The notes below the pieces were generated by a model, which had not been told where the DNA came from, made no database searches, and saw only the letters and a program-made list of their open reading frames with translations. The position numbers were made by a program, and so were the translations under genes. This document shows positions 18,503 through 62,986 of a DNA stretch of 64,000 bases, in pieces. The stretch comes from Streptomyces sp. CNQ085 (GTDB lineage Bacteria; Actinomycetota; Actinomycetes; Streptomycetales; Streptomycetaceae), in contig NZ_JAJFAU010000001.1 in NCBI RefSeq assembly GCF_022614595.1, positions 17,797-81,796 on the forward strand, given 5' to 3'. Each line of letters starts with the position of its first letter. The stretch's first letter is position 1.

Positions 18503-18521
18503 TTAAGTAAGGCTATCCTAA
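18503..18521. promoter_or_regulatory. Iron box in front of desA
   Basis: TTAAGTAAGGCTATCCTAA is an imperfect 19-bp palindrome. Read on the minus strand it matches the DtxR/DmdR1 consensus TTAGGTTAGCCTAACCTAA at 16 of 19 positions. It lies between desF (ends 18595) and desA (starts 18469), in desA promoter position, and should shut the operon when iron is plentiful. Confidence 0.88.
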
Positions 18522-53297: not shown

Positions 53298-54797
53298 TTG
53301 ACCTTCTCTTCCTCCCTCCCGCAGAACGGCCAGCGCCTCGCCGAGACGTACCGCCGAGCCGACGCCCTGATGGAGGAGGACGTCGCTTGGAGCCACGACA
53401 TCGACGGCGAGCGCGACGGTGACCAGTACGACCGCTCCGAGCGCGCCGCTCTCCGCCGTGTCGCGGGCCTGTCCACCGAACTCCAGGACGTCACGGAGGT
53501 CGAGTACCGGCAGCTGCGCCTGGAGCGCGTGGTGCTCGTGGGCGTGTGGACCTCCGGCACCGCGCAGGACGCCGATAACTCCCTCGCCGAGCTCGCGGCC
53601 CTGGCCGAGACCGCCGGCGCGCTCGTCCTCGACGGGGTGATCCAGCGCCGCGACAAGCCGGACCCGGCCACCTACATCGGCTCGGGCAAGGCGCAGGAGC
53701 TGCGCGACATCGTGGTCGAGACGGCGGCCGATACCGTCGTGTGCGACGGTGAGCTCAGCCCCGGCCAGCTCATCCACCTGGAGGACGTCGTCAAGGTCAA
53801 GGTGGTGGACCGCACCGCCCTGATCCTCGACATCTTCGCCCAGCACGCCAAGTCCCGCGAGGGCAAGGCCCAGGTGGCGCTGGCGCAGATGCAGTACATG
53901 CTGCCCAGGCTGCGCGGCTGGGGCCAGTCTCTGTCCCGGCAGATGGGCGGCGGCGGCTCCGGTTCCTCCGGCGGCGGCATGGCCACCCGTGGTCCCGGTG
54001 AGACCAAGATCGAGACGGACCGGCGGCGGATCCGCGAGAAGATGGCGAAGACGCGCCGGGAGATCGCGGAGATGAAGACCGGCCGCGACGTCAAGCGGCA
54101 GGAGCGGCGCCGCAACAAGGTACCGTCGATCGCCATCGCCGGATACACCAACGCGGGCAAGTCCTCGCTGCTCAACCGCCTCACGGGCGCGGGCGTGCTG
54201 GTGGAGAACGCGCTGTTCGCCACCCTTGATCCGACCGTACGCCGCGCCGAGACCCCCGGCGGGCGCGCGTACACCCTGGCCGACACCGTCGGCTTCGTGC
54301 GCCATCTGCCGCATCACCTCGTCGAGGCGTTCCGCTCCACGATGGAGGAGGTCGCCGACTCCGACCTGATCCTCCACGTGGTGGACGGCTCGCACCCGGC
54401 CCCCGAGGAGCAGCTCGCCGCCGTGCGCGAGGTGATCCGGGACGTCGGCGCGGTGGACGTGCCCGAGATCGTGGTGGTCAACAAGGCGGACGCCGCCGAT
54501 CCGCTGACCCTGGCGCGGCTGCTGCGCGCCGAGAAGCGCGCCCTCGCCGTCTCCGCCCGTACCGGGCAGGGTGTCGACGAGCTGCTGGAGCTGATCGACC
54601 GGGAGCTGCCGCGCCCGGCCGTGGAGCTGACGGTGCTGGTGCCCTACACCCGCGGCGACCTGGTCTCCCGGGCCCACGCCGAGGGGGAGATCATCTCGGA
54701 GGAACACACCGAGGGCGGCACGCTGCTCGCGACCCGTGTTCACGAGGAGCTGGCGGTCGAACTCAGGGCGTACGCCACCGCGGGCACGACGGCCTGA
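53298..54797 (+). CDS. hflX: GTPase HflX
   Basis: A 499-residue ribosome-associated GTPase that splits stalled or heat-damaged ribosomes. The N-terminal HflX domain has DPATYIGSGKAQEL and VCDGELSPGQL; a Gly/Ser-rich stretch GGGGSGSSGGGMATRGPGETKIETDRR precedes the GTPase. G1 GYTNAGKS is at 282-289, G3 DTVGF, G4 NKAD, and a C-terminal domain follows. It starts with TTG at 53298 behind AAGGA, an unusual start that keeps the normal N-terminus. A hairpin terminator follows. Confidence 0.96.
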   Translation: MTFSSSLPQNGQRLAETYRRADALMEEDVAWSHDIDGERDGDQYDRSERAALRRVAGLSTELQDVTEVEYRQLRLERVVLVGVWTSGTAQDADNSLAELAALAETAGALVLDGVIQRRDKPDPATYIGSGKAQELRDIVVETAADTVVCDGELSPGQLIHLEDVVKVKVVDRTALILDIFAQHAKSREGKAQVALAQMQYMLPRLRGWGQSLSRQMGGGGSGSSGGGMATRGPGETKIETDRRRIREKMAKTRREIAEMKTGRDVKRQERRRNKVPSIAIAGYTNAGKSSLLNRLTGAGVLVENALFATLDPTVRRAETPGGRAYTLADTVGFVRHLPHHLVEAFRSTMEEVADSDLILHVVDGSHPAPEEQLAAVREVIRDVGAVDVPEIVVVNKADAADPLTLARLLRAEKRALAVSARTGQGVDELLELIDRELPRPAVELTVLVPYTRGDLVSRAHAEGEIISEEHTEGGTLLATRVHEELAVELRAYATAGTTA

Positions 54798-54866: not shown

Positions 54867-54907
54867 AGGCTGTGCGGGGCCGGATGCCGTACGGGCATAC
54901 TGATCCC

Positions 54908-55129
54908 ACGATCAAAGTGCTGGTCGCCGAGGACATGCACGTGGTGCGGGCGGACCCGGCGGAGATCCCGGACGGACAACCGGGCATCGAGGTCGCGGGG
55001 CAGGCGGCCGACGGCCTGTCCGCGCTGGAGGCGGCCCTGCGGCACGGGCCCGACATCATGGTCCTCGACATCGATCTGCCCGGTCTGGACGGTATCTCGG
55101 TGGCCGCACGGCTGCGTGAGAGGCTTCCG
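54908..55129 (+). pseudogene. Decayed NarL-type response regulator (receiver fragment)
   Basis: The frame reads [20 protein letters not shown] then [36 protein letters not shown] and [12 protein letters not shown], a clear NarL/FixJ receiver with the Asp of [12 protein letters not shown]. The codon at the expected start is ACG (54908) where ATG would be normal, helix 1 has lost its usual Leu pattern, and after RERLP the rest of the receiver and the whole DNA-binding domain are replaced by sequence without sense. An in-frame ATG at 54887 exists but has no ribosome site. A lost two-component gene. Confidence 0.72.
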
Positions 55130-55358
55130 GTGGCGGTTTCGGCGGCCTGGTGCGCGCTGTCCCCGGTGGTGTGGCCGGTCAGGGGGCGTTATCCGCGGTG
55201 CTGGAGTCCGCGCCGCGGGCCACGGGAGACGGCGGCCGACCGACCGTGATCCGGGTCACGCTCCACCGGGTGGCCGGGGGCGCGGCCGTACGATGGGCGG
55301 GACGGCGCGCATCCTGCCCCGGGAGCGCGACCCTACCCACCTTCGAGGAGTCGGCACC

Positions 55359-55775
55359 GTGCTGCGCACCATGTTCAAGTCGAAGATCCACCGTGCCACG
55401 GTCACCGAGGCGGATCTCCACTACGTGGGGTCCGTCACGATTGACGCGGACCTGATGGAGGCCGCCGACCTGCTGCCCGGAGAGCTGGTCCACATCGTCG
55501 ACATCACCAACGGCGCCCGCCTGGAGACCTATGTCATCGAGGGGCGGCGCGGCTCCGGGGTGATCGGAATCAACGGCGCGGCCGCGCACCTGGTCCACCC
55601 CGGGGACCTGGTGATCCTCATCAGCTACGCGCAGATGGACGACGCCGAGGCCCGCTCCCACCGGCCCGCGGTGGTGCACGTCGACGCCGACAACCGCATC
55701 GTGGAGCTGGGCAGCGACCCCTCCGAGCCGGTGCCCGGCAGCGACATGGTGCGCAGCCCGATGGCCATGGTCTGA
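55359..55775 (+). CDS. panD: Aspartate 1-decarboxylase PanD
   Basis: A 138-residue pyruvoyl enzyme making beta-alanine for pantothenate and CoA. Self-cleavage is expected between Gly24 and Ser25 (YVGSVTID); Lys9 and Tyr22 are conserved, as are [13 protein letters not shown] and [30 protein letters not shown] 55359 has CGAGGAG eight bases upstream and a TACGAT -10 candidate lies near 55288. It sits directly upstream of the second siderophore synthetase locus but has its own terminator. Confidence 0.96.
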
Positions 55776-55804
55776 CCACCGGGCGCCCGCACATCCGTGT
55801 GCAC

Positions 55805-55839
55805 GAGGCCCCGTCGCCCCCTCGGGGCGGCGGGGCCTC
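55805..55839 (+). terminator. panD terminator
   Basis: A 16-bp stem (GAGGCCCCGTCGCCCC with GGGGCGGCGGGGCCTC) with one G-T pair and a three-base loop, 30 bases after the panD stop. Confidence 0.82.
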
Positions 55840-56190
55840 GGTATGCCGCGTCTTCGTTCGGGGCCCGCCGGCGGACTTCCCGCTGACGCCCTCCAGGAGG
55901 CCCTCGGCCTCCATCCGCAGCACGGCGAAGTCCTGCGAGGCGGCCCGGACCGCCCGTCTCGGCACCGTTGGAGATCCAGTGCTCGGCCGTCTGCGGCCCA
56001 GGCCGCCCAGAACACGCCGTGCGGCGCGACCTCGCCCGGGAGGCTGCGATCTCGTCCCCGGCCGTGATCCGGCGGGGGCGCCGTCGTTGGTACGGGCGGA
56101 GGCATGGTGCCGCCTGCGCCGGCAGCGCCGTGCCACGGTAACCGGACGACCACGCACCGGTGCGGTGCCCTCACGCCCAGGGAGACTTCC
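55840..56190. other. Gap before the second NIS synthetase gene
   Basis: About 350 bases with no intact gene. Minus-strand frames hold short protein-like pieces (APHGVFWAAWAADG near 56020 and ASQDFAVLRMEAEGLLEGVS near 55900) in different frames, which may be remains of a small gene. I looked for an iron box in front of the synthetase and found none, unlike the two sites in the des locus. Confidence 0.35.
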
Positions 56191-58134
56191 GTGAACGCAT
56201 GTCCCGCTCCGGACGGGATGACGACGCAGGAGGCGGCGGACCCGGCGGGAGGGCGGCCCACCACACCCGCCGCACCCGCCGCGGATGCCGCACTCGCGGA
56301 GCCCGCCGGGCCCGTCGTACCCCGGCAGTACGCCGGTGAGCGGAGGGCGGGCGACCCGCTGGAACACTCCGACCCGTTCGTGGCCGCCGACGCCGCGGCC
56401 GCCGAGAACCTGCTGCGCTGCTGGGTGCGGGAGAACGACCTGCCCCGGCCCGGCGGGGCCGTCCTCCGCGTCGCGCTGGCCTCCTGCGGTCTGGTGCTGC
56501 GGGTGCCGCTCCACCACTGGTCCGCCGCCGGCTGGCACCGCTTCGGCCCACCCGCCCTGGAGGGCGCCGCGCCCGGCACCGCCCCCCTCGACGCGGTGAC
56601 GCTGGCCGCCCTGCTGGCGAGGGAGGCCGCGCACCGCGGGCCCACGGCCCCGGGAGCCGCCAGGGGAGAGGGCACGGAGCTGGTCGGCCGGGTAGCCGAC
56701 TCCGTGGGCCGTACCGCCGTCTTCCTCGCCGACCGCCGGGCCCGTCCCGACGCACCACCCACCGCCGACCCGTTCCTGGACGGCGAGCAGTCCCTGATCC
56801 TCGGGCACCCGCTGCACCCGGTGCCCAAGAGCCGCGAGGGCGTCACCGGGGCCGAGGCACGCGCCTGGTCCCCGGAACTGCGCGGGGCCTTCCCCCTGCA
56901 CTGGGTGGCCGTCGACCGCTCCGTCCTGGCCTCCGACTCCGCCTGGACCGACCGCGGCCGGATCGTGCCCGCCGAACGGATCGCCGCCGAGCTGGCCGGG
57001 CCCGGGCTGCGTCTGCCCGAGGGGACGGTCCCCCTTCCGCTGCACCCCTGGCAGGCCCGAGAGGTGCGGCACCGCCCCGCCGTCACGGCTCTGCTCGAGG
57101 CCGGTCTGCTGCACGACCTCGGCCCGCACGGCGACCCGTGGCACCCGACCTCCTCCGTGCGCACCGTCCACCGGCCCGGCGTACCCGCCATGCTCAAGCT
57201 CTCGCTGGGCATGCGGATCACCAACTCCCGCCGGGAGAACCTCCGCAAGGAGCTGCGCCGCGGAGTGGAGGTGCACCGGCTGCTGCGCACCGGCCTGGGC
57301 GCGCGCTGGCGGGCCGCCTTCCCCGGCCGTCCGGGTTTCGACATCGTGCGCGACCCCGCCTGGCTGGCCGTCGACGACGGCGCCGGGAAGCCGGTGGCCG
57401 GGCTGGACACCGTCATCCGGCACAACCCCTTCGGGCCCGGCGGCGACGCCGTGTGCCTGGCCGGGCTGACCTCCCCCCGGCCCTGGCCCGGCGATCCCCG
57501 CGGCGCGCTCCGCTCCCGGCTGGCCGATGTCGTCACCCGGCTCGCGGCCCGTACGGGACGGCCGGTGGCCACCGTCGCCGCCGAGTGGTTCCTGCGCTAC
57601 CTCCACACCGTCGTGCACCCCGTGCTGTGGCTGGACGCCGAGGCGGGTATCGCCCTGGAGGCGCACCAGCAGAACACCGTGGTCCTGCTCGACGGCGACG
57701 GCTGGCCGGTTGGCGGCCGCTACCGCGACAACCAGGGCTACTACTTCCGCGAGTCCCACCGGGAGGCGCTCCGGAGGCGCTTGCCGGGCATCGGCGCGGA
57801 CAGCGACACCTTCGTCGCCGACGAGGTCGCCGACGAGCGCTTCGCCTACTACCTGGGCGTCAACAACGTACTGGGTCTGATCGGGGCGTTCGGCTCCCAG
57901 GGGCTGGCCGAGGAGGAACTGCTGCTCGCCGCGCTGCGCCGCTTCCTCACCGACGCCGACCGCCCCGGCGACGGCGCCCCCAGCTCATCGCTGCCCGCCC
58001 TCCTGCTTCACTCCCCGGTCCTGCGGTGCAAGGCCAACCTCCTCACCCGGCTGCACGGGCTGGACGAGCTGGCCGGGCCGGTGGACACCCAGTCCGTCTA
58101 TGTCACCGTCACCAACCCCCTGGTGAAGCCCTGA
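56191..58134 (+). CDS. IucA/IucC-family NIS siderophore synthetase
   Basis: A 647-residue ATP-dependent carboxylate-amine ligase. Type-A-like motif GHPLHPVPKSREGVTGAEA, then PLPLHPWQAREV, WHPTSSVRTVHRPGVPAMLKLSLGMRITNSRRENLRKEL, ALEAHQQNTVVLLDGD and RDNQGYYFRESH; these are the nucleotide- and metal-binding regions. It differs strongly from DesD, so it should condense a citrate- or dicarboxylate-type acid with an amine. GTG 56191 has AGGGAGA upstream. The matching S. coelicolor locus has further genes as I recall (SCO5799-5801); here only this gene and a GNAT remain. The product is unknown. Confidence 0.9.
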   Translation: MNACPAPDGMTTQEAADPAGGRPTTPAAPAADAALAEPAGPVVPRQYAGERRAGDPLEHSDPFVAADAAAAENLLRCWVRENDLPRPGGAVLRVALASCGLVLRVPLHHWSAAGWHRFGPPALEGAAPGTAPLDAVTLAALLAREAAHRGPTAPGAARGEGTELVGRVADSVGRTAVFLADRRARPDAPPTADPFLDGEQSLILGHPLHPVPKSREGVTGAEARAWSPELRGAFPLHWVAVDRSVLASDSAWTDRGRIVPAERIAAELAGPGLRLPEGTVPLPLHPWQAREVRHRPAVTALLEAGLLHDLGPHGDPWHPTSSVRTVHRPGVPAMLKLSLGMRITNSRRENLRKELRRGVEVHRLLRTGLGARWRAAFPGRPGFDIVRDPAWLAVDDGAGKPVAGLDTVIRHNPFGPGGDAVCLAGLTSPRPWPGDPRGALRSRLADVVTRLAARTGRPVATVAAEWFLRYLHTVVHPVLWLDAEAGIALEAHQQNTVVLLDGDGWPVGGRYRDNQGYYFRESHREALRRRLPGIGADSDTFVADEVADERFAYYLGVNNVLGLIGAFGSQGLAEEELLLAALRRFLTDADRPGDGAPSSSLPALLLHSPVLRCKANLLTRLHGLDELAGPVDTQSVYVTVTNPLVKP

Positions 58135-58154
58135 ACCTCACAGGAGATACCACC

Positions 58155-58880
58155 ATGACCACCGGTGTTCCACAGGCCTGCCCCGCTCCCGCCGTGTCCA
58201 CGGTCGCCACCGCGCCCGCTGCCGTACGCGTCCCGTCGGGCGCGGCGGTCCCGCCGATCGCCGCCGCTCCCGGCCCGCGACCGCCCTCCGGGCCGCCCCG
58301 GGCGCGGGCGGGTCTGCTGGACGGCGTCGCCGACTGGGGGCCGGTCATCACGGCCGCCGGTGTCTTCCGGCTCGTTCCCGTCCGCGTCGAACGCGACCTG
58401 CGGCTGATCACCGCCTGGATGAACGACCCCGCGGTGGCGGCCTTCTGGCACCTGGCAGGCCCCGCCGGCACCACCGCCGCGCATCTGCGCGCCCAGACCG
58501 GCGGCGACGGGCGCAGCGTACCGTGTCTGGGGGTGCTCTCCGGCGTCCCCATGAGCTACTGGGAGGTCTACCGCGCCGATCTCGACCCGCTCGCCCGGTA
58601 CCACCCGGTGCGCCCGCACGACACCGGGCTGCATCTGCTGATCGGCAGCGCGGCGGACCGGGGACGCGGGGTCGGCACGGTGCTGCTGCGGGCGGTCTCG
58701 GACCTCGTCCTGGACCGGCGTCCGGCCTGCGGCCGCGTCGTCGCCGAGCCCGACATCCGCAATGCCCCGTCCATCGCGGCCTTCCTGCGGGCGGGCTTCC
58801 GGCTGGCCGCCGAGACCGACCTCCCGGGCAAACGGGCCGCCGTGGTGGTCCGAGACCGGACGCCGCGGCCCCTCCCGTGA
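58155..58880 (+). CDS. GNAT acyltransferase paired with the NIS synthetase
   Basis: A 241-residue siderophore-type N-acyltransferase. A Pro/Ala-rich 65-residue start precedes the Acetyltransf_8 fold: FRLVPVRVERDLRLITAWMNDPAVAAFWHL, MSYWEVYRADLDPLARYHP, GLHLLIGSAADRGRGVGTVLLRAV and RVVAEPDIRNAPSIAAFLRAGF. It resembles IucB and DesC and would acylate an N-hydroxyamine for the adjacent synthetase. CAGGAGA precedes ATG 58155, 21 bases after the synthetase stop, so they form an operon. No N-hydroxylase is next to it. Confidence 0.88.
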   Translation: MTTGVPQACPAPAVSTVATAPAAVRVPSGAAVPPIAAAPGPRPPSGPPRARAGLLDGVADWGPVITAAGVFRLVPVRVERDLRLITAWMNDPAVAAFWHLAGPAGTTAAHLRAQTGGDGRSVPCLGVLSGVPMSYWEVYRADLDPLARYHPVRPHDTGLHLLIGSAADRGRGVGTVLLRAVSDLVLDRRPACGRVVAEPDIRNAPSIAAFLRAGFRLAAETDLPGKRAAVVVRDRTPRPLP

Positions 58881-58947
58881 CTTCCCGGGCGGGCTGTGGG
58901 CCGTACCGGGTACGGCTGTCGGCGCCGCCGCGTAAGGTGGCGGTCCT

Positions 58948-60981
58948 ATGACCAAGCCCGCCCTCACCGACCTCCTCCACGCCGCCGTCGCCGCCGTCGG
59001 AGGCACCGAGCGATCCGGCCAGGTGGCCATGGCCGAAGCCGTGGCCGAGGCCATCGACAGCAACGTCCACCTGCTGGTCCAGGCGGGCACCGGGACCGGC
59101 AAGTCGCTGGGATACCTGGTGCCCGCCCTGGCGCACGGGGAACGCACGGTCATCGCGACCGCGACGCTCGCCCTGCAGCGGCAGCTGGTCGAACGCGACC
59201 TGCCGCGTACGGTCGAGGCCCTCCACCCGCTGCTGCGCCGCCGTCCCGAGTACGCCATGCTCAAAGGACGCTCCAACTACCTGTGCCTGCACCGCCTCCA
59301 CGAGGGGGTGCCGCAGGACGACGAGGACGGTCTGTTCGACCCTTTCGAGGCCGCGGCCCCCACCAGCCGGCTGGGCAAGGACCTGCTGCGGCTGCGGGAC
59401 TGGGCGGACGAGACCGAGACCGGTGACCGCGACGACCTCACCCCGGGCGTCTCCGACCGCGCCTGGTCCCAGGTGTCGGTCTCCTCGCGGGAGTGCCTGG
59501 GCGCCACCCGCTGCGCCTACGGGGCGGAGTGCTTCGCGGAGGCGGCGCGCGAGCGGGCCAAGCTCGCCGAGGTGATCGTCACCAACCACGCGCTGCTGGC
59601 CATCGACGCCATCGAGGGTGCGCCGGTGCTCCCCGGCCATGAGGTCCTGATCGTCGACGAGGCGCACGAACTGGTCTCCCGGGTCACCGGGGTGGCCACC
59701 GGCGAGCTGACGCCGGGCGGGGTCAACCGGGCGGTGCGCCGTGCGGCCAAACTTGTCGACGAGAAGGAGGCCGACCGGCTGCAGACGGCCGCGGAGGGCT
59801 TCGAGCGGCTGATGGAGCTGGCGCTGCCGGGCCGGCTGGAGGAGATCCCCGAGGACCTCGGATACGCCCTGACGGCGCTGCGCGACGCGGCCCGCGCGGT
59901 CATCACCGCTCTGGGCAGCACCCGTGACCGGTCCGTCCAGGACGAGGACGCGGTCCGCCGCCAGGCCCAGGCCTCGGTGGAGAACGTCCACGCGGTCGCC
60001 GAGCGCATCGTGCAGGGCTCGGAGTACGACGTCGTCTGGTACGAGCGCCACGACCGCTACGGAGCCTCGCTGCGGGTCGCACCGCTGGCGGTCTCCGGAC
60101 TGCTGAGGGAGAAGCTGTTCGAGGACCGGTCGGTGGTGCTGGCCTCGGCCACGCTCAAGCTCGGCGGGGACTTCGACGGGGTGGGCGCCTCCCTGGGGCT
60201 GAGCGCCGGGGGACGGATCACGGAGGCCGGCGGCGCGGGTGCCGTCGGCGGGGACGAGGGGAACGGGAGCGACGCGGCGGAGGCGGGCGCCGGGGACCCG
60301 CAGTGGTGGGGACTGGACGTCGGCTCGCCCTTCGACTACCGCAGGCAGGGCATCCTCTACGTCGCCCAGCACCTGTCACCGCCCGGCCGGGAGGGCAGCC
60401 GCGGCGACATGCTGGACGAGCTGACCGAGCTGGTGGAAGCGGCCGGGGGACGCACCCTCGGACTGTTCTCCTCGATGCGGGCCGCCCAGGCGGCGGCCGA
60501 GGAAGTGCGCGGGCGGCTGGACGTACCCGTACTGCTGCAGGGCGAGGAGACCCTGGGCGAGCTGATCCGGCGCTTCGCGGCGGATGCCGAGACCTGCCTG
60601 TTCGGGACATTGTCGCTGTGGCAGGGCGTGGACGTGCCGGGCCCGAACTGCCAGCTGGTGGTGATGGACCGCATCCCGTTCCCGCGCCCCGACGATCCGC
60701 TGATGAGCGCCCGGCAGAAGGCCGTGGAGGAGGCAGGCGGAAACGGCTTCATGGCGGTGGCGGCCACCCACGCCGCGCTGCTGATGGCACAGGGGGCGGG
60801 CCGTCTGGTGCGGGCGACGGGAGACCGGGGCGTGGTCGCGGTACTGGACTCGCGGCTGGCCCGGGCACGCTACGGGAGCTTCCTGCGGGCCTCGATGCCC
60901 GACTTCTGGTACACCACCGACCGCAACCAGGTGCGCCGTTCACTGGCGGCCATCGACGCCGCGGTCAGGGAGAGCGCGTAG
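58948..60981 (+). CDS. DinG/Rad3-type ATP-dependent DNA helicase
   Basis: A 677-residue superfamily 2 helicase. Walker A GTGTGKS is near residue 48, DEAH in VLIVDEAHELVS, and GTLSLWQGVDVPG plus AQGAGRLVRATGDRG are later motifs. The Fe-S cluster Cys set of XPD/DinG is present: NYLC, SSREC, TRC and EC, spaced as in the family. It unwinds damaged or R-loop DNA 5' to 3'. A Gly/Ala-rich insert (about 425-450) is variable. It lies next to lexA (converging), but I see no SOS box in front of it. Confidence 0.92.
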   Translation: MTKPALTDLLHAAVAAVGGTERSGQVAMAEAVAEAIDSNVHLLVQAGTGTGKSLGYLVPALAHGERTVIATATLALQRQLVERDLPRTVEALHPLLRRRPEYAMLKGRSNYLCLHRLHEGVPQDDEDGLFDPFEAAAPTSRLGKDLLRLRDWADETETGDRDDLTPGVSDRAWSQVSVSSRECLGATRCAYGAECFAEAARERAKLAEVIVTNHALLAIDAIEGAPVLPGHEVLIVDEAHELVSRVTGVATGELTPGGVNRAVRRAAKLVDEKEADRLQTAAEGFERLMELALPGRLEEIPEDLGYALTALRDAARAVITALGSTRDRSVQDEDAVRRQAQASVENVHAVAERIVQGSEYDVVWYERHDRYGASLRVAPLAVSGLLREKLFEDRSVVLASATLKLGGDFDGVGASLGLSAGGRITEAGGAGAVGGDEGNGSDAAEAGAGDPQWWGLDVGSPFDYRRQGILYVAQHLSPPGREGSRGDMLDELTELVEAAGGRTLGLFSSMRAAQAAAEEVRGRLDVPVLLQGEETLGELIRRFAADAETCLFGTLSLWQGVDVPGPNCQLVVMDRIPFPRPDDPLMSARQKAVEEAGGNGFMAVAATHAALLMAQGAGRLVRATGDRGVVAVLDSRLARARYGSFLRASMPDFWYTTDRNQVRRSLAAIDAAVRESA

Positions 60982-61172: not shown

Positions 61173-61967
61173 TCAGACGCGCCGCAGCACAGCGACGACC
61201 TTGCCGAGAATGGTGGCCTCGTCGCCGGGGATCGGCTGGTAGGCGGCGTTGTGGGGGATCAGCCACACATGCCCGTCCTCGCGCCTGAAGCGCTTGACGG
61301 TCGCCTCGCCGTCCAGCATGGCGGCGACGATGTCGCCGTTCTCGGCGACCGGCTGGCGGCGCACCGTGACCCAGTCGCCGTCGCAGATCGCCGCGTCGAC
61401 CATGGAGTCGCCGATGACCTTGAGCACGAACAGCTCGCCGTCGCCGACGAGCTGGCGGGGCAGCGGGAAGACGTCCTCTACCGACTCCTCGGCGAGGATC
61501 GGGCCTCCGGCGGCGATCCGGCCGACCAGGGGGACGTAGGAGGCGGCGGGCTTGCCGGTGGTGTCGGTGGTCTGGCTGGTGGGCGCGTCCGAGGCGCGCA
61601 CCTCGTAGGCGCGGGGGCGGTGCGGGTCGCGCCGCAGGAAGCCCTTGCGCTCCAGGGCCATCAGCTGGTGGGCCACGGAGGAGGTGGAGGACAGGCCGAC
61701 GGCCTGTCCGATCTCCCGCATCGACGGCGGGTAGCCGCGGCGCTGCACCGAGTCGCGGATCACCTCGATCACCCGGCGCTGCCGGTCAGTCAGCCCGGAG
61801 CTGTCGGCTCGGATTCCCGGTGGGCGGCCGGGCAGGGAGCGGGTGGGCCTGAGAGCCTCCGCACCGTCGTCCGTGCTGTCGGGCGCGCCGGAAACGGCGT
61901 TTGCCTCCCGCACACGGTCGGCCCGGTCCCGTGCGGTGATGGTGCTGCTCTCTGCTGTGGTGGTCAC
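61173..61967 (-). CDS. lexA: SOS repressor LexA
   Basis: A 264-residue repressor of DNA-damage genes. A 55-residue flexible start precedes the winged helix ([40 protein letters not shown]). The self-cleavage site is Ala153-Gly154 (GRIAAGGP); Ser188 (GDSMVDAA) and Lys225 (EATVKRF) are the catalytic pair. GTG 61967 follows GAGAGGGG; the frame extends back to 62057 through the operator, so that start is rejected. Its own SOS box lies at 62030-62045. Confidence 0.97.
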
Positions 61968-62029
61968 GTCGGCCCCTCTCGAGCGGTTCTCCCTGGTTGG
62001 ACAACGGTATGTGCTTTCGAAAGGTTGCG

Positions 62030-62045
62030 CCAAACACACGTTCGA
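62030..62045. promoter_or_regulatory. LexA box of lexA
   Basis: On the minus strand TCGAACGTGTGTTTGG fits CGAAC-R-N-R-Y-GTTYG, 63 bases before the lexA GTG. It gives self-repression. Confidence 0.85.
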
Positions 62046-62182
62046 GTGAAATTCCACAGATTAGCTGACGTGATTGATGAGGCCGGTGTAGGGACTGCGA
62101 ATCGCCTGCGATCGCTACGGTAGCCTCTCGTGCGTTTGCCGCTCCGGCGTTTCCGGCATGCATGGCGTGTTCGTCGGGCAGC

Positions 62183-62230: not shown

Positions 62231-62374
62231 CCCCTGGTCCTGGAGGGCGGCGGGCATCACCTATGCTGGTGGCCGCTTTCGGGGTCCGCCCACTGGGTAC
62301 CCGAACGTGTGTCCAACGCTGTTCCGCTGCGCCGCTCATGCTGCGCCATCGAGGGTGAAGGAGGGTGGGAAGCG

Positions 62375-62986
62375 ATGCACTGCCCCTTCTGCCGGCACCC
62401 CGACAGCCGCGTCGTCGACAGTCGCACCACCGACGACGGCACCGCGATCCGCCGACGCCGCCAGTGCCCGCACTGCTCGCGCCGCTTCACGACGGTGGAG
62501 AACGCGTCGTTGATGGTCATCAAGCGGAGCGGGGTCACCGAGCCCTTCAGCCGGGACAAGGTGATCGCCGGGGTGCGCAAGGCATGCCAGGGGCGTCCGG
62601 TCACCGAGGACGCGCTCGCCAAGCTGGGCCAGCGGGTCGAGGAGGCGGTGCGCGCCACCGGGAGCGCCGAGCTGTCCACGCACGATGTCGGGCTGGCCAT
62701 ACTCGGTCCGCTGCGCGAACTGGACCTCGTGGCGTACCTGCGCTTCGCCTCCGTGTACCAGGCGTTCGACTCGCTGGAGGACTTCGAGGCCGCGATCGCC
62801 GAGCTGCGCGGGGAACGGACGCCGGCGGGCGGTGACCGTGCCGGCGGAGGCGACGCTGCGCCGGGCAGAACCACGGCCGCGGGAGCCGGGGGCCGCAGCG
62901 GTCCCGGGAGGACCGGAGACGGAAGCGACGGCGGAGGCGGCGAAAGCCCCGCCGCTCCGCCCGCGCCACTGGCCGCCGGAGACTGA
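62375..62986 (+). CDS. nrdR: Ribonucleotide reductase repressor NrdR
   Basis: A 203-residue repressor. Zinc ribbon Cys3, Cys6, Cys31 and Cys34 ([35 protein letters not shown]) binds DNA; the ATP-cone (about 46-136, [25 protein letters not shown]) senses ATP versus dATP. After residue 150 there is a 50-residue Gly/Ala/Arg-rich tail; the usual length is near 150-180, so the tail is long. ATG 62375 has GGAGGG upstream. The frame open to 62309 is not needed. Confidence 0.96.

Follow-up and report, generated by a model that had tools for sequence, protein, structure and literature searches.

A NIS synthetase and acyltransferase gene pair of Streptomyces sp. CNQ085 as the putative core of a reduced schizokinen-type siderophore operon

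Introduction

The rhizobactin 1021 operon, rhbABCDEF, comprises in this order genes for an aminotransferase, a decarboxylase, a NIS synthetase, an acyltransferase, a hydroxylase and a second NIS synthetase. In Sinorhizobium meliloti, rhbB is described as the gene of a diaminobutyrate decarboxylase (PMC2848241). For HVO_B0041-46 of Haloferax volcanii, a schizokinen pathway has been proposed that leads from diaminobutyrate through 1,3-diaminopropane, N-hydroxylation and acetylation to two citrate couplings (PMC7407949). Schizokinen itself has been reported by LC-MS in S. anulatus RLA103 (PMC11865988) and, tentatively, in S. mutomycini SL02 and Streptomyces sp. SL03 (PMC13136089). In S. coelicolor, SCO5799-SCO5801 are catalogued as genes of a putative siderophore cluster (PMC7324645, PMC3224560). 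SCO5799/SCO5801 are reported to be up in the aerial and spore stages, in which desA is down (PMC3610822), and over-expression of SCO3201 is reported to lower both SCO5799-5801 and des (PMC7324645).

In this study, we analyzed a 64,000-nucleotide stretch of Streptomyces sp. CNQ085, hereafter the window, which carries a pair of genes corresponding to rhbC-rhbD. Complete operons of a sister family contain the same kinds of genes as rhbABCDEF, whereas the slot of the window has two of the six genes, no iron box and no transporter. The chemistry proposed for HVO_B0041-46 matches that which we propose for the pathway of the pair, although the pair has no adjoining aminotransferase, decarboxylase, hydroxylase or second synthetase. 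SCO5799-SCO5801 presumably occupy the orthologous slot; they combine an aminotransferase with siderophore genes, whereas the aminotransferase has been lost in the clade of the window strain (the window clade).

Results

The preliminary description of this DNA had placed a second, distinct IucA/IucC protein and a GNAT between panD and a helicase gene, and the family assignments agree (Table 1). The synthetase, here termed NISA, has 647 aa, a GTG start and a plausible ribosome site; it matches PF04183 with 211 bits (cut-off 25) and, at its C-terminus, PF06276 with 119.8 bits (cut-off 25.2); among solved structures, IucA is nearest by sequence (E 3.7e-54). The GNAT (241 aa) matches PF13523, Acetyltransf_8, with 153.9 bits (cut-off 27), and MbtK is its nearest solved structure (E 1.6e-31). 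At E <= 0.001, the genome contains four IucA/IucC genes, namely NISA, one gene in the des region and two on contig C114. Since the des region of the window has its own separate IucA/IucC gene, NISA is not DesD. The des operon of the window is likewise of the NIS and hydroxamate type, with its own decarboxylase and hydroxylase and a related GNAT, but its synthetase belongs to another lineage and an iron-box-like site lies upstream of its desA, whereas none lies at the pair.

Table 1. Features of the pair and its surroundings in the window
Feature	Position	Strand	Evidence
hflX, upstream syntenic anchor	53298..54797	+	TIGR03156 430.6 bits
panD, aspartate 1-decarboxylase; flank, outside pathway	55359..55775	+	TIGR00223 175 bits
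Promoter-like element CGTGATC-N12-CGTCGTTGGTACG	56063..56094	+	Exact match in window; 96 nt before NISA start
NIS synthetase NISA, IucA/RhbC-like	56191..58134	+	PF04183 2.6e-62, PF06276 2e-34; best PDB match IucA
GNAT acyltransferase, MbtK/IucB/RhbD-like	58155..58880	+	PF13523 2.8e-45; best PDB match MbtK
DinG/YoaA-type helicase, syntenic anchor	58948..60981	+	NF053712 454.8 bits, below cut-off 680
lexA, syntenic anchor	61173..62057	-	TIGR00498 250 bits
nrdR, syntenic anchor	62309..62986	+	TIGR00244 151.5 bits

Open reading frame lists and tblastn revealed no decarboxylase, hydroxylase or transporter gene in the panD-helicase interval of the window, as the preliminary description had stated. 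Of the rhb/schizokinen-type gene set, the aminotransferase, the decarboxylase, the N-hydroxylase (PF13434) and the second NIS synthetase are all missing from the slot. The diaminobutyrate aminotransferase was also not found at three related loci (L005, L006 and L159), and a tblastn search (E<=10) of the panD-NISA gap for its remnant gave no aminotransferase match in the window and chance-level matches only in L005 and L006. A search of 55700-58960 against Rfam for RNA elements yielded nothing up to E 0.5.

The claimed absence of an iron box was borne out by a scan against TTAGGTTAGGCTCACCTAA. Near the pair, the best sites deviate from it at 10 positions in 55700-56260 and at 9 in 58100-58960, compared with 4 mismatches at position 18503, upstream of desA. 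Among 80 relatives, none has an iron box with <=5 mismatches at the operon; two matches lie elsewhere (L037 and L077). Instead of an iron box, the pair is preceded by a promoter-like element, which in relatives is located upstream of the aminotransferase gene. With <=4 mismatches over its 20 fixed bases, the element occurs in 65/80 homologous loci and 13/19 further stretches of the genus, in addition to the window, and the best match always has a spacing of 12. It is exact in 44/179 loci, where base composition predicts 3e-6 in 2.57 Mb. Read as CGTGAT-N16-CGTTGG, it agrees in 9/12 positions and in spacing with the BldN-type ECF consensus CGTAAC-N16-CGTTGA (PMC2375139), a tentative likeness that we noticed post hoc.

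We counted slot contents per locus in the best 80 relatives of NISA. The GNAT is present in 78/80, following NISA in each, and the second synthetase (NISB) in 51/80, while decarboxylase and hydroxylase are found in 0/80. Upstream of the pair, 69/80 carry a diaminobutyrate-family aminotransferase of class III, in line with the extra gene that the preliminary description ascribed to the matching S. coelicolor locus; the 11 loci lacking it all have the GNAT. The earlier reading of an orphan pair that may need an amine from elsewhere is also supported. NISA of the slot type was detected in 93/101 Streptomyces genomes. In G028, only the synthetase remains; in G067, no GNAT is visible and the aminotransferase is a mere fragment. 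A genome-level count, in which no more than 17 candidates per genome were scored, gave aminotransferase absence in 18/101 genomes, which is an overcount owing to this limit: G017 and G102 lacked the aminotransferase in it, yet have one at the locus (52% and 74%), and three of its matches (G059, G060 and G105) fall by position in C114-type clusters. This count being unreliable, we used the locus-level counts and drew no co-occurrence test from it.

The corresponding slot of the sister family (hflX...helicase-lexA) is occupied by an entire rhb/schizokinen-type operon, usually with an iron box. The full order of aminotransferase, decarboxylase, NISA, GNAT, hydroxylase, NISB and helicase was found in 10/14 stretches, three others being cut by contig ends and one being reduced, and 8/10 complete operons have an iron box with <=4 mismatches. 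The helicase that follows is 57-59% identical to the window helicase, and the frame of hflX, helicase, lexA and nrdR is common to the complete operons and the window, as expected of descent from an operon of this type. Trees separate the lineages, with an unsure root. The sister-operon decarboxylase is 48-59% identical to that of C114. Among family models, the C114 enzyme scores highest with that of the diaminobutyrate decarboxylase RhbB (362 bits, short of the 900-bit cut-off). Given this kinship to an RhbB-like enzyme, the ancestral route probably ran via 1,3-diaminopropane.

Outside the slot, we found a decarboxylase and a hydroxylase as a separate pair, the former immediately before the latter in 9/10 loci read. 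Based on this arrangement, the schizokinen-type pathway of Streptomyces looks split into two distant loci. The separate-type hydroxylase occurs in 89/101 genomes, one of them partial. Its co-occurrence with NISA is weak, with presence/absence in 84/9 genomes that have NISA and in 5/3 without (Fisher p 0.05, uncorrected for kinship), some of the NISA absences probably being contig gaps. In G010 and G012, which have NISA and the GNAT, we saw no separate hydroxylase and no full-length match of DesB grade. Among the titles and abstract openings listed from the open-licence literature, we found no description of such a split pathway. The idea that the slot and the separate loci have the element in common was rejected, since 0/10 of the separate loci have it. 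A different motif, roughly ACCCC-TTTCGGGTT, is found at these loci.

In the window-clade genomes G000, G059, G117 and G118, the separate hydroxylase was not found and a C114-type hydroxylase is present instead. The C114 cluster of the window genome has an iron box, the RhbB-like decarboxylase, a hydroxylase and a second synthetase, and no GNAT of the window-pair family. A need of this cluster for the window GNAT was rejected, because G025 carries a C114-type cluster, yet no GNAT of this family was found there at E <= 1e-10. The genes ectABC were found in G000. Between the C114 enzymes and the pair there is neither a physical tie nor a common regulatory site, the element being found in 0/10 stretches of C114-type contigs.

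Both reading frames of the pair are open in four window-clade species. Of 163 near-invariant NISA columns, the window protein keeps 162 and differs at one only (L264I). Six window-clade pairs give a median dN(NISA)/dN(helicase) of 2.29, and 42 pairs of complete loci give 2.38; the corresponding values for the GNAT are 2.91 and 2.71. Raw dN/dS is higher in the window clade than in complete loci, at 0.28 vs 0.23 for NISA, 0.28 vs 0.19 for the GNAT and 0.14 vs 0.10 for the helicase. By these comparisons, the surviving pair shows no apparent decay.

Discussion

Judged from gene content and synteny, the pair is the apparent remainder of a known siderophore operon, reduced by erosion. We give a probability of about 0.5 to the reading that it represents the kept RhbC-/RhbD-like core of an rhbABCDEF/schizokinen-type operon passed on by vertical descent, with the amine supplied in trans. 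Compared with the complete operon of the sister family, the slot of Streptomyces is without the decarboxylase, the hydroxylase and the iron box. In the window clade, aminotransferase, NISB and the separate hydroxylase are absent as well, and what is left is the element, NISA and the GNAT. Considering that the pair is intact behind a conserved non-iron element, it probably draws on precursors from other parts of the genome. The GNAT would acylate an N-hydroxydiamine, and NISA would adenylate citrate and couple it to the acylated amine, with the chemistry of the full operon; most likely, the pair joins an acylated N-hydroxydiamine, derived from an amine delivered in trans, to citrate. The source of this amine is probably an iron-boxed cluster on another contig. 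Less certainly, the C114 cluster may deliver N-hydroxy-1,3-diaminopropane, EctB may supply diaminobutyrate, and the second synthetase of C114 may complete the molecule. Against this reading stand the missing tie between C114 and the pair, the C114-type cluster of G025 that does without the GNAT, the lack of the element at the separate loci, the weak co-occurrence of the separate hydroxylase with NISA, the state of G010 and G012, and the higher raw dN/dS of the window clade, although the helicase shares this rise.

The pair could instead have been repurposed to make a non-hydroxamate amide of citrate, with diaminobutyrate or some other free amine as a possible partner, for use in development and not in iron uptake. 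The slot of all 80 relatives is devoid of hydroxylase and decarboxylase, there is no iron box, a different conserved element is present, and one study describes S. coelicolor expression opposite to that of desA (PMC3610822). However, a hydroxylase, usually beside a decarboxylase, lies elsewhere in most Streptomyces examined, and residues near-invariant across complete operons and the other slot sequences are almost unchanged in NISA. We consider this repurposing unlikely. On the one hand, the earlier suggestion that the pair answers a different signal gains some support from the conserved non-iron element and from the opposite expression of SCO5799/SCO5801 and desA. On the other hand, the joint fall of SCO5799-5801 and des on SCO3201 over-expression, as reported in PMC7324645, speaks against a simple contrast between the two loci.

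About as improbable, in our view, is that the pair is a fading, productless remnant, of which the promoter and two genes have just escaped deletion so far. The absence of partners in several lineages, including G028 and G067, and the somewhat higher raw dN/dS of the window clade would fit such a state, but the open frames in four species, a helicase-relative dN like that of complete loci, the conservation of the near-invariant NISA columns and the presence of the GNAT in 11/11 aminotransferase-less loci argue against it.

The preliminary description had proposed that the pair borrows N-hydroxycadaverine from des; an amine from elsewhere is supported, while des is a less likely source given the RhbB-like ancestry of the operon. 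A cadaverine-based citrate hydroxamate would be arthrobactin-like. We regard this product as similarly improbable: the window des decarboxylase and hydroxylase are 38.5% and 46.4% identical to their C114-type counterparts and genes of DesB grade (at least 67% identity) occur in 18/25 genus genomes, but the ancestral operon has its own hydroxylase and RhbB-like decarboxylase, the diaminobutyrate-type aminotransferase of most relatives points to 1,3-diaminopropane, the near-invariant NISA residues hardly changed upon partner loss, and a complete operon stands beside des in six sister genomes. Each of these genomes (G026, G027, G029, G030, G031 and G034) combines the complete operon with a gene of DesD grade, so des alone did not make the decarboxylase and hydroxylase dispensable, and we rejected the idea that it rendered them redundant.

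Beyond the reading of a kept core fed in trans, we tentatively suggest a wider and rather speculative picture. In most Streptomyces, the schizokinen-type pathway may have been divided between two distant operons and have escaped the iron repressor, while its synthetase half came under the control of a conserved promoter that is ECF-like and possibly developmental. The window clade may have come down to two genes fed by the hydroxamates of another iron-regulated cluster, and the cells may form the product, a citrate hydroxamate, in aerial or spore stages and not on iron starvation.

In summary, the separate decarboxylase-hydroxylase pair would make the pathway complete on paper, and testable, where a view of a single locus shows just half of it; the apparent S. 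coelicolor counterpart, SCO5799-SCO5801, is termed just a putative siderophore cluster in the sources cited above. The window clade indicates how far such a pathway may be reduced with its core intact, and the non-iron element may offer a handle on the time at which this core is used.

The pair and its genomic setting

An orphan NIS synthetase and acyltransferase pair, without amine-forming genes or an iron box, had been proposed in the preliminary description, and profile matches bear out its coordinates for both genes. By sequence, the nearest solved structure is IucA for the synthetase (E 3.7e-54) and MbtK for the acyltransferase, a GNAT (E 1.6e-31). The pair is flanked upstream by panD, preceded by hflX, and downstream by a DinG/YoaA-like helicase, beyond which lie lexA and then nrdR. 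Amine-forming genes and an iron box are indeed absent from this site (hereafter the slot): in the intergenic stretches of the pair, iron-box-like sites have at best 9-10 mismatches, against 3-4 for those of the window's des region. No iron-box site with five or fewer mismatches was found at the operon in the best 80 relatives; matches in L037 (inside the helicase) and L077 (more than 3 kb upstream), two loci of relatives, are unrelated to the operon.

Features of the window around the pair and in the des region
Feature	Position	Remarks
Iron-box-like site, directly upstream of desA	18503	imperfect, 4 mismatches
Iron-box-like site, des region	20697	3 mismatches
ORF just upstream of panD	54872-55249	resembles, by eye, a truncated response-regulator receiver domain
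Element CGTGATC-N12-CGTCGTTGGTACG	56063-56094	exact match
NIS synthetase, 647 residues	56191-58134	PF04183, PF06276; plausible ribosome site
Acyltransferase (GNAT), 241 residues	58155-58880	PF13523; plausible ribosome site

The assembly (G000; 4.9 Mb, 225 contigs, 94.6% complete), whose closest named relatives are Streptomyces radiopugnans and S. barkulensis, has four IucA/IucC genes: that of the pair, that of the des region and two on C114, another contig with an iron-boxed NIS cluster. A 23-residue stretch at G000:C29:14698-14766, 96% identical to synthetase residues 484-506 and within a 30-aa frame, may be a fragment of a gene or an artefact of the assembly.

Reduction of a complete operon

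In the best 80 of at least 564 matching relatives (78 Streptomyces, 2 Actinacidiphila), the slot order is aminotransferase, synthetase, GNAT, second synthetase, helicase. The diaminobutyrate-type aminotransferase is present in 69 of these loci, the GNAT in 78 (the remaining two are cut by contig ends) and the second, SbnF-like synthetase in 51; a decarboxylase upstream of the synthetase and a hydroxylase downstream of it were found in 0/80. Among the 11 aminotransferase-less loci, L009, L014 and L041 have a contig end just upstream, L073 has 2.7 kb of upstream sequence, and L005, L006, L010, L034, L047, L059 and L067 have 8 kb each.

A full operon occupies this slot in f3, a sister family from the order to which Streptomyces belongs. 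Its genes are, in sequence, aminotransferase, decarboxylase, synthetase, GNAT, hydroxylase and second synthetase; the helicase comes next, and lexA after it where the stretch reaches that far. Of the 14 stretches read, 10 have the operon complete; L132, L136 and L144 are cut by contig ends, and L139 (genome G028) has a lone NIS synthetase (L139:9404-11224) between hflX and the helicase without a GNAT, an independent case in which this operon has shrunk even further. An iron box (four or fewer mismatches) is found in eight of the ten complete operons, not in L137 and L138. The gene kinds of the complete operons are those of rhizobactin 1021 synthesis, in which rhbB is the diaminobutyrate decarboxylase (PMC2848241), and of schizokinen synthesis (PMC7407949).

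Decarboxylase and hydroxylase genes outside the slot

A DesB search turned up a further hydroxylase in 20 of 24 other genus genomes; it shares 42-46% identity with DesB, lies outside the slot and belongs to neither the C114 nor the L128 type. This separate hydroxylase is present in 89 of 101 genus genomes (the G057 copy is partial), a count that leaves out G000 and G059, where the sole matches are ~55% identical and C114-type. Ten loci were read, two of them from G005, and a decarboxylase directly precedes the hydroxylase in nine and is missing in L155. In L149 the two genes lie between pepN and 5'-nucleotidase plus pyruvate kinase, and the best NCBIfam models are diaminobutyrate decarboxylase RhbB (277 bits, cut-off 900) and histamine N-monooxygenase (392 bits, cut-off 700); substrates read from these below-cut-off models are putative. 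Trees of the synthetase and hydroxylase set apart the slot lineage, f3, the C114 type and the separate-pair lineage, with the root among the four not resolved and some branches long; L171 (slot), L128 (labelled C114; both trees) and L131 (labelled C114; hydroxylase) do not group cleanly.

The simplest reading is that Streptomyces has a schizokinen-type pathway divided between two loci. Schizokinen is reported, on LC-MS evidence, from S. anulatus (PMC11865988) and tentatively from S. mutomycini and Streptomyces sp. SL03 (PMC13136089). The four-gene slot is present in L022, which comes from an S. mutomycini strain; the cluster numbers of these papers could not be assigned to it.

A dyad-like conserved motif, about ACCCC-TTTCGGGTT, lies upstream of the decarboxylase in L147-L154 and L156, ~150-300 nt before the decarboxylase core, and scores >20 in seven of nine separate-pair loci. 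L151 (G005) has a second, more divergent decarboxylase-hydroxylase pair, adjoining methionine synthase and an ETF gene, with an iron-box-like site in front (4 mismatches).

The window clade

In the synthetase tree, G000, G117 (S. barkulensis), G118 (S. radiopugnans) and G059 (99% complete) form one clade (SH-aLRT 99). All four share the gene order panD, synthetase, GNAT, helicase; the aminotransferase and second synthetase are absent from their slots, and no separate hydroxylase was seen in these genomes. Each of them, and G120, has a C114-type hydroxylase (53-55%), and the separate hydroxylase is kept in G119, G121, G122, G123 and G124, which have aminotransferase-less loci. The C114-type cluster of the clade comprises an iron box, a PF02784 decarboxylase, an RhbB-like decarboxylase, a synthetase (~50% identical to that of the window), hydroxylase, second synthetase and glutamine-synthetase-like gene; in G059 it also contains an aminotransferase. 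No PF13523 GNAT was found in this cluster, nor, at E <= 1e-10, in G025, where a C114-type cluster is present. The glutamine-synthetase-like ligase may make an amide or hydroxamate instead of the GNAT. Its gene forms the end of the C114-type clusters L123 (14590-15948; contig C114), L127, L131, L160, L162, L175, L176 and L177, in which no PF13523 GNAT was seen. G000 also has ectABC, which makes diaminobutyrate.

A conserved promoter-like element and expression

Motif search upstream of the aminotransferase (~73 stretches) gave GCGTCGTTGGTACGTACG, which is not in every stretch. With its upstream half it forms the element listed in the table. Allowing four mismatches over 20 fixed bases, 65 of 80 slot loci carry this element, as do 13 of 19 further genus stretches and the window; in all 79 the best match has a spacing of 12. 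It was found in 0/10 stretches of C114-type contigs and 0/10 separate-pair stretches; 2/14 f3 stretches have a four-mismatch match with spacing 13, the chance rate at this threshold. The exact element also occurs in L005, L006, L159 and the aminotransferase-less L010 and L067. The loss of the aminotransferase thus removed it from the stretch that separates the element and the synthetase gene. The element resembles the BldN promoter, CGTAAC-N16-CGTTGA (PMC2375139), at 9 of 12 positions with equal spacing; this likeness, noticed after the fact, is no more than a lead.

Between panD and the synthetase there are 419 bases in the window (cf. 55776-56062) but ~1.6 kb in L005 (6490-7938) and L006; in L005 this gap contains a divergent trypsin-like gene. 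A CACTATGCCGGTG element occurs in L005, L006, L159 and several relatives and is missing in the window.

We infer, in part from the presumed SCO numbers of the neighbouring genes, that SCO5799-5801 is the slot operon of S. coelicolor. In PMC3610822, SCO5799 (aminotransferase) and SCO5801 are up in the second mycelium at 48 h/72 h (log2 1.3/1.8 and 1.8/1.3) and desA is down (-3.7/-3.2). Two further reports describe SCO5799-5801 and des as both down on SCO3201 over-expression (PMC7324645), and SCO5799 and SCO5800 as down with several des genes up in copper-perturbed cultures (PMC6414726).

Constraint on the retained genes

Both genes keep an open reading frame in each of the four species of the window clade. 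Pairwise NG86 dN/dS is 0.27-0.40 for the synthetase and 0.29-0.50 for the GNAT, whereas the helicase has 0.11-0.15 and C114 genes 0.23-0.62; these comparisons are limited by non-independent pairs and by the crudeness of NG86 at 72% GC. With the helicase as yardstick over aligned cores, median relative dN of the synthetase is 2.29 for the 6 pairs of the clade and 2.38 for the 42 pairs of complete loci, and that of the GNAT 2.91 and 2.71; the values for synthetase and GNAT are 4.67 and 4.24 in loci with the aminotransferase but without the second synthetase (4 pairs), and 2.84 and 2.19 in the 16 remaining pairs. The raw medians of dN/dS for the clade (synthetase 0.28, GNAT 0.28, helicase 0.14) lie somewhat above those for complete loci (0.23, 0.19, 0.10), and therefore mild general relaxation or bias is possible. 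Judged by these comparisons, the two genes appear not to be decaying, and a fading remnant is the less probable account.

Near-invariant columns were those at which 12 f3 and 26 other slot rows agree with at most one exception. The window trio deviates at one of 163 synthetase columns (L264I), with L005 deviating at one more (K353R), and at two of 46 GNAT columns (Y150H, L230V), with L159 deviating at one. Since these columns are almost all kept, the chemistry is probably unchanged; we likewise give a lower probability to a repurposed pair with a non-hydroxamate product.

Proposed role of the pair

Each enzyme and the parent operon are of known kinds. In the titles, abstract starts and passages covered by our literature search, no description was found of the split pathway, of the eroded two-gene form with an intact core or of the conserved non-iron element. 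The sequences show the descent of the pair, its gene losses, kept residues and conserved element. On the proposed reading, the GNAT would acylate an N-hydroxydiamine, and the synthetase would couple the product to citrate. With less certainty, the C114 enzymes may supply N-hydroxy-1,3-diaminopropane, a source that we hold more probable than borrowing from des; against this supply, C114 shares no regulatory site with the pair and is not physically linked to it, and neither a separate hydroxylase nor a full DesB-grade one was seen in G010 and G012.
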